A stretch of DNA of 35,901 bases from Caryophanales bacterium (GTDB lineage: Bacteria > Bacillota_I > Bacilli_A > RFN20 > CAG-449), in NCBI GenBank assembly GCA_029006735.1, contig JAQXGN010000020.1, positions 1 to 35,901 on the forward strand, given 5' to 3'. Position numbers and translations under genes: made by a program. Position 1 is the stretch's first letter; each line of letters opens with the position of its first letter. This document shows positions 16,295-23,101 of this stretch, one piece after another. The notes beneath the pieces are model-generated. The model had not been told where the DNA came from, made no database searches, and was given only the letters and a program-made list of their open reading frames with translations.

Positions 16295-16495
16295 CTATTG
16301 TTCTGTTGGATTATATCCTTCTTTAGTAACTAAATCAAATATTTCTTTTTTTGATAAAGAAGAAGTTACGCTCACTTTTTTAGTACTTAGATCTACAACT
16401 ATATCTTCATTACCTTCCACATTTAAAGCATTATAAACATGCTTAACACAATGAGAACACATCATATCTTTTACATAAAATTCTATTTTGTTCAT
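16295..16495 (-). CDS. copZ: CopZ-like copper chaperone from an internal start in copA
   Basis: The last 66 residues of CopA form a complete HMA domain beginning M-N-K-I-E-F-Y-V-K-D-M-M-C-S-H-C. The Met codon at 16495 has GGAGG (16504-16508) at eight bases, as good as any ribosome site in the window, and in frame with the fusion. A free CopZ could therefore be made from the same mRNA as the long ATPase. This start is inferred. The alternative is that the domain exists only as the CopA C-terminus. Confidence 0.5.
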   Translation of the reverse strand: MNKIEFYVKDMMCSHCVKHVYNALNVEGNEDIVVDLSTKKVSVTSSLSKKEIFDLVTKEGYNPTEQ

Positions 16496-18763
16496 TACTT
16501 TTTCCTCCGCTATTTCTTTTTCATTAATATCATAATTTAAATGTACTTTCTTAAAAAATTTAATCGTTAAAGCATTTATTACAACAGAAACACTTGAAAT
16601 ACTCATCGCAATACTTGCAATCATTGGATTCATTTTAAAGCCATTAATATAATATAAAAATCCAGTTGACAATATAATACAAATAGAGTTATAAAAAAAC
16701 GCCCAAAACAATCCTAATTTAATTGTATTTAATACTCTTTTTGATAAATTTATTACGTTAAATACATCTAATAAATCGTTATTCACTAATACTATGTCTG
16801 CACATTCTAAAGCAATATCTGAACCAGCACCAATCGCGATGCCTAAATCTGCACTAGTTAATGCTAATGCATCATTAACTCCATCACCCACCATTGCGAC
16901 TAAATGCTTATCATCCTTTTTTAAACTATTAATAATTCTTTGCTTATCTTGGGGATATACTTCAGAAAACACTTCTTCAATTCCTAATTCTTGAGCGATC
17001 TTATTAGCCACAATTTTATTATCGCCTGTAAGCATGACAACTCTTATTCCATTTCTTTTTAATAATTCAATCGCTTTTGAAGAAGTATTCTTCACTTGAT
17101 CTTTAATTGATAATATTCCTATTACTGTATCGTTTTTTGCGAAAATCAAAGGTGTTTTTCCCTCTTTTGAATACCTATTAATAATAGTGTTAACATCATT
17201 AGGAATCGCAAATGTTCGATTATTACCAATATAATAAACATCATTATTAAATTTACCTTTTACCCCTTGTCCTTCCATAGATTCAAATTCTGATACTTCT
17301 AATAATCTAGCGTTTTTATTTAAACAGTATCGACAAATTGATTCACCTAAAGGATGCTCCGATTTAGTCTCTAAAGAATATAAGATTGATAATATATTTT
17401 CTTCTTTTTTTAATTCAATAAAATCTATAACTTCTGGTCGACCATTTGTTATAGTACCTGTTTTATCTAATACGACCGTTTTAATACTATGTGCTTTTTC
17501 TAATATTTCCGCATTTTTGATCAATAGGCCATTTTCTGCACCTTTTCCTACTCCAACCATAATCGCAACTGGAGTTGCTAAACCTAATGCACATGGACAA
17601 GCAATCACTATTACAGTAATAGCAAAGTTAAAAGATAATTCAAAATCAACTTGCCCTTTTACTAAGTAAGATAATAATAGATTTAATGCAAAAGTAATTA
17701 ACGAAATAGTTAGAATAATTGATACAAAAATCCCAGAAATCTTATCTGCTAATTTAGATATTGGAGCTTTAGAAGAGCTTGCTTCTTCTACCAATTTAAT
17801 AATAGTATTTATTGATGTATCTTCACCAACTTTCTTCGCTTGAACTTTTATATAACCACTATTAATTATTGAAGAAGAAATAACCTCTTCACCAACAGTC
17901 TTTAATACAGGTAGAGATTCTCCCGTAAAAGAAGATTGATCAATTGAAGCTTGACCTTCTATTATTATTCCATCTACTGGTATCTTTTCTCCTTTTTTAA
18001 CAATAACTATATCATCAACTAATACATCACAAGCGTTAACTACTCTTTCCTGTCCTTCAATAAATAAAGTTGCTTCTAAAGGTGCTAATCCTATTAATTT
18101 AGTTAGTGAAGAGGTAGTTTTCTTTTTTGATAAGTTTTCAAGATATTTTCCTAAACTTACCATAGTTAAAATCATTCCCGCTGATTCAAAATACAAGTAC
18201 ATATGATATTCATTATGACCTAAAATAACCATTATTAAGCAAAATATTCCATATATTAAAGAACAAAAAGCCCCTAGAGCAATAAGCGTATCCATATTGG
18301 GTGAACCTTTAATTAATCTTTTAAACCCATTAATAAAATATCGACGATAGAAAACGACAATTGGTAATACTAAAATCAATTGAATCAAAGAAAACCCAAT
18401 AGGATTTTTCTCCATATTAATAATATTAGGAACTACCCATCCCCACATCATATGTCCCATAGAAACATACATTAATAACATTAATAAAACGATAGAAATG
18501 ATTAAAAGAAGGAAACTATAATCTTTTTTTGCCATATTAGATATCTTTTTCTCTTTTTTTAATATAGCTTCATATCCTTCATTGGATAAAATATGACAGA
18601 TTAAATCGATATTAACTTTCTTCTCATCGAATTCAACTTCCATAGAATTTGTTAATAGATTAACCTCGCAAGAAGATACTCCATTTATTTTACTTACTGC
18701 ATTATATACATTTCTTTCACATGATGCACATGTCATTCCTTTAACATCAAAACGTTCTTTCAT
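16295..18763 (-). CDS. copA: Copper-exporting P1B ATPase with N- and C-terminal HMA domains
   Basis: The 822-aa P-type ATPase exports copper. The N-terminal HMA domain (1-70) has G-M-T-C-A-S-C (Cys12, Cys15). Membrane helices flank A-C-P-C-A-L-G, the transport site. The phosphatase motif is T-G-E-S, phosphorylation D-K-T-G-T, nucleotide binding S-E-H-P-L-G, and hinge G-D-G-V-N-D-A. A second HMA domain (D-M-M-C-S-H-C) occupies the last 66 residues after a linker; most CopA proteins carry HMA only at the N-terminus. The gene begins one base after csoR, with AAAGGATG inside the csoR end as its ribosome site. The pair forms a copper-induced operon. Cu(I) is the expected ion; no sign of Zn/Cd motifs. 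Confidence 0.95.
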   Translation of the reverse strand: MKERFDVKGMTCASCERNVYNAVSKINGVSSCEVNLLTNSMEVEFDEKKVNIDLICHILSNEGYEAILKKEKKISNMAKKDYSFLLLIISIVLLMLLMYVSMGHMMWGWVVPNIINMEKNPIGFSLIQLILVLPIVVFYRRYFINGFKRLIKGSPNMDTLIALGAFCSLIYGIFCLIMVILGHNEYHMYLYFESAGMILTMVSLGKYLENLSKKKTTSSLTKLIGLAPLEATLFIEGQERVVNACDVLVDDIVIVKKGEKIPVDGIIIEGQASIDQSSFTGESLPVLKTVGEEVISSSIINSGYIKVQAKKVGEDTSINTIIKLVEEASSSKAPISKLADKISGIFVSIILTISLITFALNLLLSYLVKGQVDFELSFNFAITVIVIACPCALGLATPVAIMVGVGKGAENGLLIKNAEILEKAHSIKTVVLDKTGTITNGRPEVIDFIELKKEENILSILYSLETKSEHPLGESICRYCLNKNARLLEVSEFESMEGQGVKGKFNNDVYYIGNNRTFAIPNDVNTIINRYSKEGKTPLIFAKNDTVIGILSIKDQVKNTSSKAIELLKRNGIRVVMLTGDNKIVANKIAQELGIEEVFSEVYPQDKQRIINSLKKDDKHLVAMVGDGVNDALALTSADLGIAIGAGSDIALECADIVLVNNDLLDVFNVINLSKRVLNTIKLGLFWAFFYNSICIILSTGFLYYINGFKMNPMIASIAMSISSVSVVINALTIKFFKKVHLNYDINEKEIAEEKVMNKIEFYVKDMMCSHCVKHVYNALNVEGNEDIVVDLSTKKVSVTSSLSKKEIFDLVTKEGYNPTEQ

Positions 18764-19025: not shown

Positions 19026-19028
19026 AAA

Positions 19029-19079
19029 TACACCCCCCTAGGGTATCTATATTATATGAAGTAATCGATTAAATATCAA
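19029..19079 (-). promoter_or_regulatory. csoR-copA promoter and CsoR operator
   Basis: TTGATA (19074-19079) and TATAAT (19051-19056) are 17 bases apart on the minus strand. The operator at 19029-19046 (ATACCC-TAGG-GGGGTGTA on the minus strand) overlaps the expected start point and supplies the GGGGGG ribosome site. A repressor bound here would block both transcription and leader. Confidence 0.85.
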
Positions 19080-20326: not shown

Positions 20327-22993
20327 TTATCTATAATTCTTATACGAAGGATCAAGTTCAACTAATTCAGAAAAATTATCTATTTCAATAATATCTTCTT
20401 TCTTACATTCATTAATTTCTATTGCAAAATCATTTTGATAATAATAGAAAACAATCGTTTCCCAGAATTCTTGTTTACCACTAGCTGAAGCAAATACTTG
20501 AGGAATATATTCTCTTATTTTCTTACAGTCATTTTTATTCCAATAAGAAATCCCATACGCATTATAACAATTCACATTACCTTTTTTATAATCATAAGCT
20601 AATCCATCTTTACTTCTAAAAGACCAATCATCTGTTTCAAATACTTTCGCACCTAAATAATTTGATGAATAGTGATATTTAGAAATAATATATGGAGAAG
20701 AAATCATAAAATCAGCTTCGCAAATATACGTATTATCGACTAAAGGTAATACTTTCATTATCGATGAAATATTATTAGTTTTTGCATAGTCATCATTATC
20801 AATAAAATGAATAAACGGATATTTTTCTAATAATTCATCAAACATTTCTTTTTTATATCCACGAACAATATAAATATCTTTAATATCTTGTTTAATCAAT
20901 GCATCTAATAATGTATCAATAATTCTTACTCCATTAATTTTTACTAATGGTTTTGGTCGATATAAAGTAACTGGTGCCATCCTTGAGCCAAATCCTGCAG
21001 CTAAAATAATCGCTCTTGAAACTTTATATTCATCGAGTATTTTTAACCCTTCATCTGATATGTAGTAGTTGTTTTCATTTAAATAAATATAACCATTTGT
21101 TAAACATTTATTAATATCTTCAGTAAGTGTATTCCAAGAAAAACCCAATTCATTTGCTAAAAATCTAATTGATGTATTAACGCTTTTTTTCTCTACCAAA
21201 TACTTCATTAATTCAAATTGACCTCTGGTTAATTTAATATTTGTTTTTACTAACATGTCGGAATATTTTTTCGCAATACTATACCAATTATATAAACTCG
21301 AACCCATATCAGCATCCATTAATTCACGATATAAAGCCCATACAAACCAATAATAAGCAATAATAGCCACATAAGATAAGTAATGGTTTCTCAATGTTTC
21401 ATTATATTCATCTTTACAGTATTCTTTAATGAATCTTTCTGCTTCATCAAAATCATACATTGCATCAACAATATAATAACCTACATCAACGCCAGGATCA
21501 GATATACCTGAATATTCCCAATCAATTAATATTACTTTATCCTTTTGCATCATCCAATTGTATTTATATGTATCGCAATGACAGATACATTTCTTTACTC
21601 CATCATTTCTAATTCTTTCATAAAGAATACCAACTTTTGATTTCAAATCTTCAAAATCGCTCATTTGAATAGATGATTTTTCTTTGATTATTTTTTCTAT
21701 TTCTAAAGCTTCTTCCCAAGGTTTAAACTCCCAATTAATTGAATCATCCTGGATAGAATGAAGTTTTCTTAAGACTTCAATTACTTTTTTTGAATCATCA
21801 AAAGAAAGATAATCAGGTTCATAAAATTCTTCGACATAATAAGAAATTTTATAGCCTTCTAATTCATCCATATAAAGGAAAGTTGAATCAAAATCATTCT
21901 TTTTTGCAAATTCTAATACTTTCTTTTCATGTTCACGATTAATTATACTTTTTGTTCCTTCTCCTGGTTGCCTATAAACATATTTTTTATGATTAACTTC
22001 AAAAATAAATGATGTATTTGTTAATCCTTCATGAATAGGTTTAAAATTGATAATATCTTTTTCATCACATAGGAAAACTTTACAGATATTACTCATTATT
22101 TTACTTTCCGTATTATTAATATATTTTTCATCAAAGGCTCTTAATTCTTCAACAAAATCAAATTCAAATATTTTATCAGACGGATATCTTTTTATTGAAA
22201 ATGGTGGCAATTTTTTTAAGTTATCTTTTACTAATTTCTCCCAAAAAGCATTATCATATTCCCCATTATCATGTGCTTGTTCAATTAAAGATACCATCAT
22301 AGATGAGAATTCTTTGTCCCAATAAGAATGACCTAATAAAATAAGTCCTTTTGATAATCCTTTTTTCATCTTTATAATTTCATCTTTTGAATTAACTTCT
22401 ACATACATTTCATCGGTTTTTTTACTAGTTTCAATCGATGCATAAAAGGATTTATATTCATATAGATTAAATGGATTATCAATAAAATAATCATCACAGG
22501 AACAGATATATGAAGAATCTATATGTTTACGTGCTAAAAATAAAGATTCAATATTATTTTTCTTATTGAATGAAGGATTAATAATAATATTTATTCCATA
22601 TTTTTCTTTTAAATAAAAGAATGATTCTTTCTTATATCCTAAAACAACATATATATTTTTAATACCAGATTGTAATAATTGTTCAATTTGACGTTCAATC
22701 AATATTTCATTTTTTACTTTAAAAAGACCTTTTGGTTGTTCTAATGATAAAGGAACAAATCTACTAGAAGGACCTGCAGCTAGAATAATTGCATTCTTGA
22801 CTTTATATGGTTCTAAAGCTTTTAATCCTTTTTCACTTACTTGATCATCTTTAAGATAATCTTGCTCAGCTAAGTTTTTCATAATTGAAGAAATGCTTCC
22901 AATAGATAGATCTAATTGATCTTTCATCTCTCGATAAGATTTCTTACCATTTTGTAAAATATAAGTTAATATATCAAATTCATTTTTTTTCAT
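20327..22993 (-). CDS. Fusion: wHTH - LicC-like - LicA-like kinase - wHTH - LicC-like
   Basis: From ATG 22993 the protein has 888 residues. Domains in order: a winged helix (1-60), an NTP transferase (66-295, A-A-G-P-S-S-R-F and C-S-C-D-D-Y), a choline kinase-like APH fold (310-590, H-C-D-T-Y-K-Y-N and L-I-D-W-E-Y-S-G), a second winged helix (595-660) and a second NTP transferase (665-885, A-A-G-F-G-S-R, P-K-P-L and E-A-D-F). HTH-NTase-kinase proteins are known in Bacillota; the extra HTH-NTase half is unusual. Likely roles are phosphorylation of choline or ethanolamine and CTP activation for surface glycopolymers or lipids. Which NTase acts on which substrate is not clear. A GGGG stretch 10 bases upstream supports this start over 23011. 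Confidence 0.85.
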   Translation of the reverse strand: MKKNEFDILTYILQNGKKSYREMKDQLDLSIGSISSIMKNLAEQDYLKDDQVSEKGLKALEPYKVKNAIILAAGPSSRFVPLSLEQPKGLFKVKNEILIERQIEQLLQSGIKNIYVVLGYKKESFFYLKEKYGINIIINPSFNKKNNIESLFLARKHIDSSYICSCDDYFIDNPFNLYEYKSFYASIETSKKTDEMYVEVNSKDEIIKMKKGLSKGLILLGHSYWDKEFSSMMVSLIEQAHDNGEYDNAFWEKLVKDNLKKLPPFSIKRYPSDKIFEFDFVEELRAFDEKYINNTESKIMSNICKVFLCDEKDIINFKPIHEGLTNTSFIFEVNHKKYVYRQPGEGTKSIINREHEKKVLEFAKKNDFDSTFLYMDELEGYKISYYVEEFYEPDYLSFDDSKKVIEVLRKLHSIQDDSINWEFKPWEEALEIEKIIKEKSSIQMSDFEDLKSKVGILYERIRNDGVKKCICHCDTYKYNWMMQKDKVILIDWEYSGISDPGVDVGYYIVDAMYDFDEAERFIKEYCKDEYNETLRNHYLSYVAIIAYYWFVWALYRELMDADMGSSLYNWYSIAKKYSDMLVKTNIKLTRGQFELMKYLVEKKSVNTSIRFLANELGFSWNTLTEDINKCLTNGYIYLNENNYYISDEGLKILDEYKVSRAIILAAGFGSRMAPVTLYRPKPLVKINGVRIIDTLLDALIKQDIKDIYIVRGYKKEMFDELLEKYPFIHFIDNDDYAKTNNISSIMKVLPLVDNTYICEADFMISSPYIISKYHYSSNYLGAKVFETDDWSFRSKDGLAYDYKKGNVNCYNAYGISYWNKNDCKKIREYIPQVFASASGKQEFWETIVFYYYQNDFAIEINECKKEDIIEIDNFSELVELDPSYKNYR

Positions 22994-23101
22994 TAAAATT
23001 GCCCCAAACATCCTTATTATTAATTCATTTATATCATAACATATTATTAAAAAAATAAATAGACAAAAAAGTATATCTGTTCATTTTTTGTATATACGAT
23101 G

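Follow-up and report, generated by a model that had tools for sequence, protein, structure and literature searches.

It is very probable that the copA gene in the 35,901-nt stretch of DNA analysed here (the window) encodes two proteins. Comparison with related genes points to a csoR-copA-copZ operon in which copZ would be the in-frame 3′ end of copA, equipped with its own Shine-Dalgarno (SD) sequence and start codon, one mRNA thereby giving two products. Briefly, ribosomes starting at the beginning of copA would produce a pump to which the C-terminal HMA domain stays tethered, and ribosomes binding the SD in the linker would produce a free HMA copper chaperone of about 66 aa. We infer that initiation takes place at the internal ATG and that the free protein would accumulate and deliver Cu(I) to CopA; it would perhaps carry Cu(I) to CsoR as well.

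The csoR-copA locus and its nested frame

The features of the locus are listed in Table 1. copA sits in a csoR-copA operon, and its product scores 542.8 bits against TIGR01511 (copper-translocating ATPase; cut-off 397), which places it among the P1B-1 Cu(I) ATPases. In the host genome (94% complete), an HMA search detected three HMA domains, two of them in CopA and the third in a further large ORF (807 aa), and no separate small HMA gene.

Table 1. Features of the csoR-copA region, with positions numbered along the window.
Feature	Positions	Strand	Basis or remark
copA, Cu(I)-exporting P1B-type ATPase, 822 aa, HMA at N- and C-terminus	16295..18763	-	ORF; PF00122, PF00702, PF00403 (two matches)
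Nested copZ-like frame, 66 aa (MNKIEF...PTEQ) and stop	16295..16495	-	Frame and stop common to copA
Internal in-frame ATG of the proposed free chaperone	16493..16495	-	8 nt after GGAGG (spacer 16503-16496)
Variable linker from last transmembrane region to C-terminal HMA	16496..16555	-	Contains the SD; boundaries approximate
Internal SD, GGAGG	16504..16508	-	Sole GGAGG on the copA coding strand; relatives have AGGAGG/GGAGG
csoR-like copper-sensing repressor, 86 aa	18765..19025	-	PF02583, 78.2 bits; ends 1 nt before copA
CsoR-operator-like palindrome ATACCCTAGGGGGGTGTAT, containing TACCCTAGGGGGGTGTA	19028-19046 (contained part 19029-19045)	-	Read from the sequence; unique in the window
Sigma-70-like promoter TTGATA-17-TATAAT for csoR-copA	19051..19079	-	11/12 consensus match

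Upstream of csoR, the palindrome TACCCTAGGGGGGTGTA is predicted to act as a CsoR operator. The SD of csoR is very strong (−13.4 kcal/mol) and is overlapped by the operator-like palindrome, so that some bases would be common to operator and ribosome site. With regard to the promoter, the match in Table 1 is weak evidence, since promoter-like sites are no more numerous in the region around csoR-copA than in shuffled sequences. The window also contains, at 20327-23011 on the minus strand, an ORF of 894 aa; inspected by eye, it looks like several domains fused together and partly repeated, with winged-helix, nucleotidyltransferase and choline-kinase-like parts.

At the border of the C-terminal HMA domain, the minus strand reads GCG GAG GAA AAA GTA ATG AAC AAA ATA GAA TTT. 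The first-pass annotation of this DNA had described a GGAGG eight bases before the in-frame Met codon of this domain, which is exact by coordinates, and had predicted a 66-residue product from that codon, which agrees with the frame in Table 1. The product taken alone scores 43.9 bits against PF00403 (cut-off 24.8) and covers the profile almost end to end (positions 2-61 of 62), so that it belongs to the HMA family. The SD energy of the internal ATG is −9.5 kcal/mol, whereas the second-best in-frame ATG reaches −4.3 and the start of copA itself −4.7, and the arrangement of GGAGG and ATG in the window is beyond chance.

The PDB matches of the 66-aa product include the copper chaperones ScAtx1 and CopZ. 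Its metal motif is DMMCSHC, in which MxCxxC is kept and Asp stands in place of the usual Gly of GMxCxxC; most relatives have GMMCxHC in their C-terminal HMA domain. The Cu(I)-binding motif of CopZ, GXXCXXC, has been called invariant (PMC3817396), and the motif of the window does not conform to it. In addition, the product lies below the NCBIfam cut-offs for CopZ (best model NF047957, 45.4 bits versus 85). In view of the motif and these scores, it is termed CopZ-like rather than CopZ.

Conservation of the proposed internal start and origin of the nested frame

A C-terminal HMA domain on CopA had been regarded at first as uncommon, which proved to be wrong: it is present in most relatives of the same order, is widespread in anaerobic Bacillota and also occurs in Spirochaetota. 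A search of GTDB genomes gave at least 570 candidate fused loci, 80 of which were retained; Clostridia made up most of them, alongside Negativicutes, Bacilli, Treponema and others. A phylum-wide survey and Spirochaetota supplied further cases. Altogether, 163 fused copA genes were extracted and reduced to 134 non-redundant ones, mostly from Bacillota; as a profile built from fused genes was used to collect them, the sample gives no measure of how frequent the fusion is. Cultured species that carry the arrangement include Acetobacterium tundrae (L094), Acetatifactor muris (L061) and Megasphaera massiliensis (L095). For SD usage, the comparison covered copA genes and a small number of window genes.

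In 119 of the 134 genes, an ATG precedes the CxxC motif by 6-15 codons. Among the other 15, six have an ATG somewhat further upstream, mostly with a clear SD, one (L035) has TTG preceded by AAGGAGG, and a usable internal start is absent from about eight. In another gene (L136), the start codon is GTG instead of ATG and the SD is preserved; its close relatives retain ATG. The SD energy at the 119 internal ATGs averages −9.34 kcal/mol, with 104 at or below −7, whereas the mean is −2.58 for the remaining 2,399 in-frame ATGs in these genes and −7.91 for the starts of copA themselves; plotted by position, the energy forms a single sharp peak 3-9 nt upstream of the internal ATG. The linker ranges from about 10 to 80 residues in relatives and, apart from the SD, is unalignable and conserved in neither sequence nor length. 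Its information content is about 0.3 bit per position, rising to 0.7-1.1 bit between −14 and −8, a stretch whose consensus includes GGAGG. The RNA is less folded near the internal start than near other in-frame ATGs (−3.6 versus −11.7 kcal/mol), of which the A-rich linker may be part of the cause.

The fusions from Spirochaetota (L214-L224) likewise have SD sequences of the AAGGAG/GGAGG type followed by ATG. Bacteroidota are known for making little use of SD sequences. Only one clearly fused copA was detected among 296 of their genomes (L105/L184), with the ATG kept and the SD absent; a fusion in a single genome, with an ATG lacking an SD, made this group uninformative as a natural control. 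Several CopA proteins have two or three C-terminal HMA domains (L096, L142, L147, L150 and L151), and no internal start was found before the second of these domains in L142, L147 and L151.

It appears that the nested frame arose from a separate gene. In some relatives, copZ is a separate gene directly downstream of copA, and in L179 and L180 the two genes overlap by 4 nt. In L177 and L178, copZ overlaps the 3′ end of copA out of frame by some tens of bases, an overlap that is intermediate between separate and nested copZ. Two relatives have copZ in the frame of copA just past its stop; one of them (L031) reads GAA TAA AAG GAG GAA AGA ATC ATG and is one stop codon away from the fused form. Furthermore, the C-terminal HMA domain scored higher against a profile of adjacent CopZ proteins than against one of N-terminal HMA domains in all tests (median margin 26 bits), and held-out N-terminal HMA domains showed the opposite preference. 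A CopA tree with 148 rows has the internal start on nearly all deep branches, and the startless fused genes sit at dispersed tips, requiring 8 changes for 10 rows. The putative in-frame copZ nested within copA is ancient.

The separate, overlapping and contiguous genes show that a fusion happened, and the SD and ATG might accordingly be relics inherited from a separate copZ and now unused. This is improbable, given that the fusion is both ancient and widely distributed, and that in an otherwise randomised linker the SD has persisted along with its G-ending codons and the start codon; the TTG and GTG substitutes with the SD kept also point to use.

The occurrence of separate small HMA genes bears on the same question. 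Such a gene is present in six of the eight searched genomes whose fused HMA domain has no start, including one right behind copA (G127) and one small HMA match under the Pfam cut-off (G168). The other two (G285 and G253) yielded no other small HMA gene in the genome search and have no internal start, which indicates that a free chaperone is not always needed. Genomes without any other small HMA gene amount to 37 of the 66 that have the internal start, versus 3 of the 18 that do not (Fisher p=0.003, uncorrected for ancestry), in tallies of small HMA genes that were counted by hand and need not all represent CopZ; another small HMA gene is also present in 29 of the 66. Such a distribution would be expected if one free chaperone were required.

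According to one proposal, ribosomes are slowed by SD-like sequences inside genes, and the SD in the linker might therefore act on elongating ribosomes only, causing a pause before the last domain, with the Met being structural. Such a brake is very improbable as the full account, as it leaves unexplained the start codon at fixed spacing, its replacement by TTG or GTG and the missing separate copZ.

Codon choice and reading register at the internal SD

A further possibility is that the protein itself requires both K-E-E in its linker and a Met at the edge of the domain. K-E-E is indeed common before the Met, and a per-locus synonymous test in which the linker amino acids are held fixed gave a modest result (p<0.05 in 39 of 119 loci), although this test is conservative, because the linker residues are themselves set by the SD. 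Combined by Fisher's method, the first 105 loci gave a statistic of 474.5 with 210 degrees of freedom, for sequences that are not independent; owing to this shared ancestry, the complementarity and synonymous results are given as effect sizes and not as exact probabilities. A Stouffer combination of the per-locus p-values gave p=1 and was set aside, since single p-values equal to 1 break this combination.

The codons used for the linker residues are more informative. In the 69 loci with a K/Q-E pair before the internal ATG, both codons end in G in 61, whereas 10.2 would be expected from the codon usage of each gene and the maximum in 20,000 simulations was 24; elsewhere in the same genes, both codons of K/Q-E end in G in 12% of cases. 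In loci where GAG is rare, the figure is 38 of 43 versus 2.4 expected. In addition, the SD is read in different registers, as GAG G in 53 genes and as GGA GG in 11, which requires seven register changes on the tree; the GGA GG register (Q-G-G, K-G-G) is clearest in a second clade of Bacilli CopA. Thus, the linker peptide varies (KEE, QGG, KGG or ERRE) while the nucleotides persist. The choice of K/Q-E codons is the decisive evidence for the predicted internal start, and, together with the register changes, it largely rules out an amino-acid constraint on the linker, which is left extremely unlikely as an explanation.

Taken together, the start codon, its spacing, the codon choice, the registers and the TTG/GTG substitutes strongly support, by comparison of sequences, the internal ribosome site in copA that the first-pass annotation had proposed. 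It had suggested that conservation of GGAGG beyond coding need be looked for, which the G-ending K/Q-E codons provide, and had named as counter-evidence related genes that keep the HMA tail and lose the SD or the Met; these are the roughly eight startless genes, with the separate small HMA genes described above. In-frame nested genes are characterised by a start codon and SD that lie at the boundary of a domain and are conserved more than the coding sequence would demand; the copZ-like frame has these features and may be regarded as a candidate nested gene.

SD-like elements can stimulate −1 frameshifting, and slippery heptamers occur near 11 of the 119 internal ATGs versus 4.4% of control windows; a frameshift of the kind used by E. 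coli copA, yielding a chaperone or a truncated pump, is nonetheless exceedingly improbable here, since it would remove the C-terminal HMA domain rather than free it and would make the start codon superfluous, and no conserved slippery site was found at the 119 loci, where the surroundings of the internal ATG were searched.

Comparison with known systems

It was reported that copZ is absent from gut Firmicutes (PMC4938975). The nested gene would be a direct answer to the missing copZ, as annotation normally omits an in-frame gene located inside another. A two-product gene, giving pump and chaperone by internal initiation, is probably an ancient and common route to CopZ in anaerobic Bacillota and Spirochaetota and would explain such reports; the same arrangement appears to be conserved across many gut and anaerobic bacteria thought to have no chaperone. 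Literature searches in a library containing few subscription papers brought up no previous description of an internal copA start. More than 100 natural internal initiation sites, with lost, shifted and substituted versions, would also offer material on what such sites require.

In-frame internal starts are known from other systems. Some phage endolysins consist of two polypeptides by means of internal translation start sites (PMC9430671), but these are lysis enzymes, both products of which assemble into one enzyme. Cas11 is translated from an internal start within cas8/cas10d (McBride 2020, cited in PMC11899642). It resembles the arrangement proposed here in that an in-frame start yields the C-terminal portion of a larger protein as a subunit in its own right; it differs in serving CRISPR effector complexes, with no role in copper handling.

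With regard to copper systems, a csoR-copA-copZ operon has been described in Listeria monocytogenes (Corbett 2011, cited in PMC4938975). Its three functions, their order and the CsoR-type repressor are all shared with the window, whereas copZ is a separate gene in Listeria and the copZ-like frame of the window is nested in copA. In E. coli, programmed −1 frameshifting in copA produces CopA(Z) (Meydan 2017 and Drees 2017, cited in PMC7558416; PMC5009743). From a single copA, E. coli obtains its pump together with a small, soluble copper chaperone of the HMA type, as is proposed here for the window; the E. coli product, however, is the N-terminal HMA domain, released by a truncating frameshift, while that of the window copA would be the C-terminal HMA domain, made from an in-frame internal SD and start codon. 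If true, this would be a second independent route from one copA to both pump and chaperone, after the frameshifting of E. coli.
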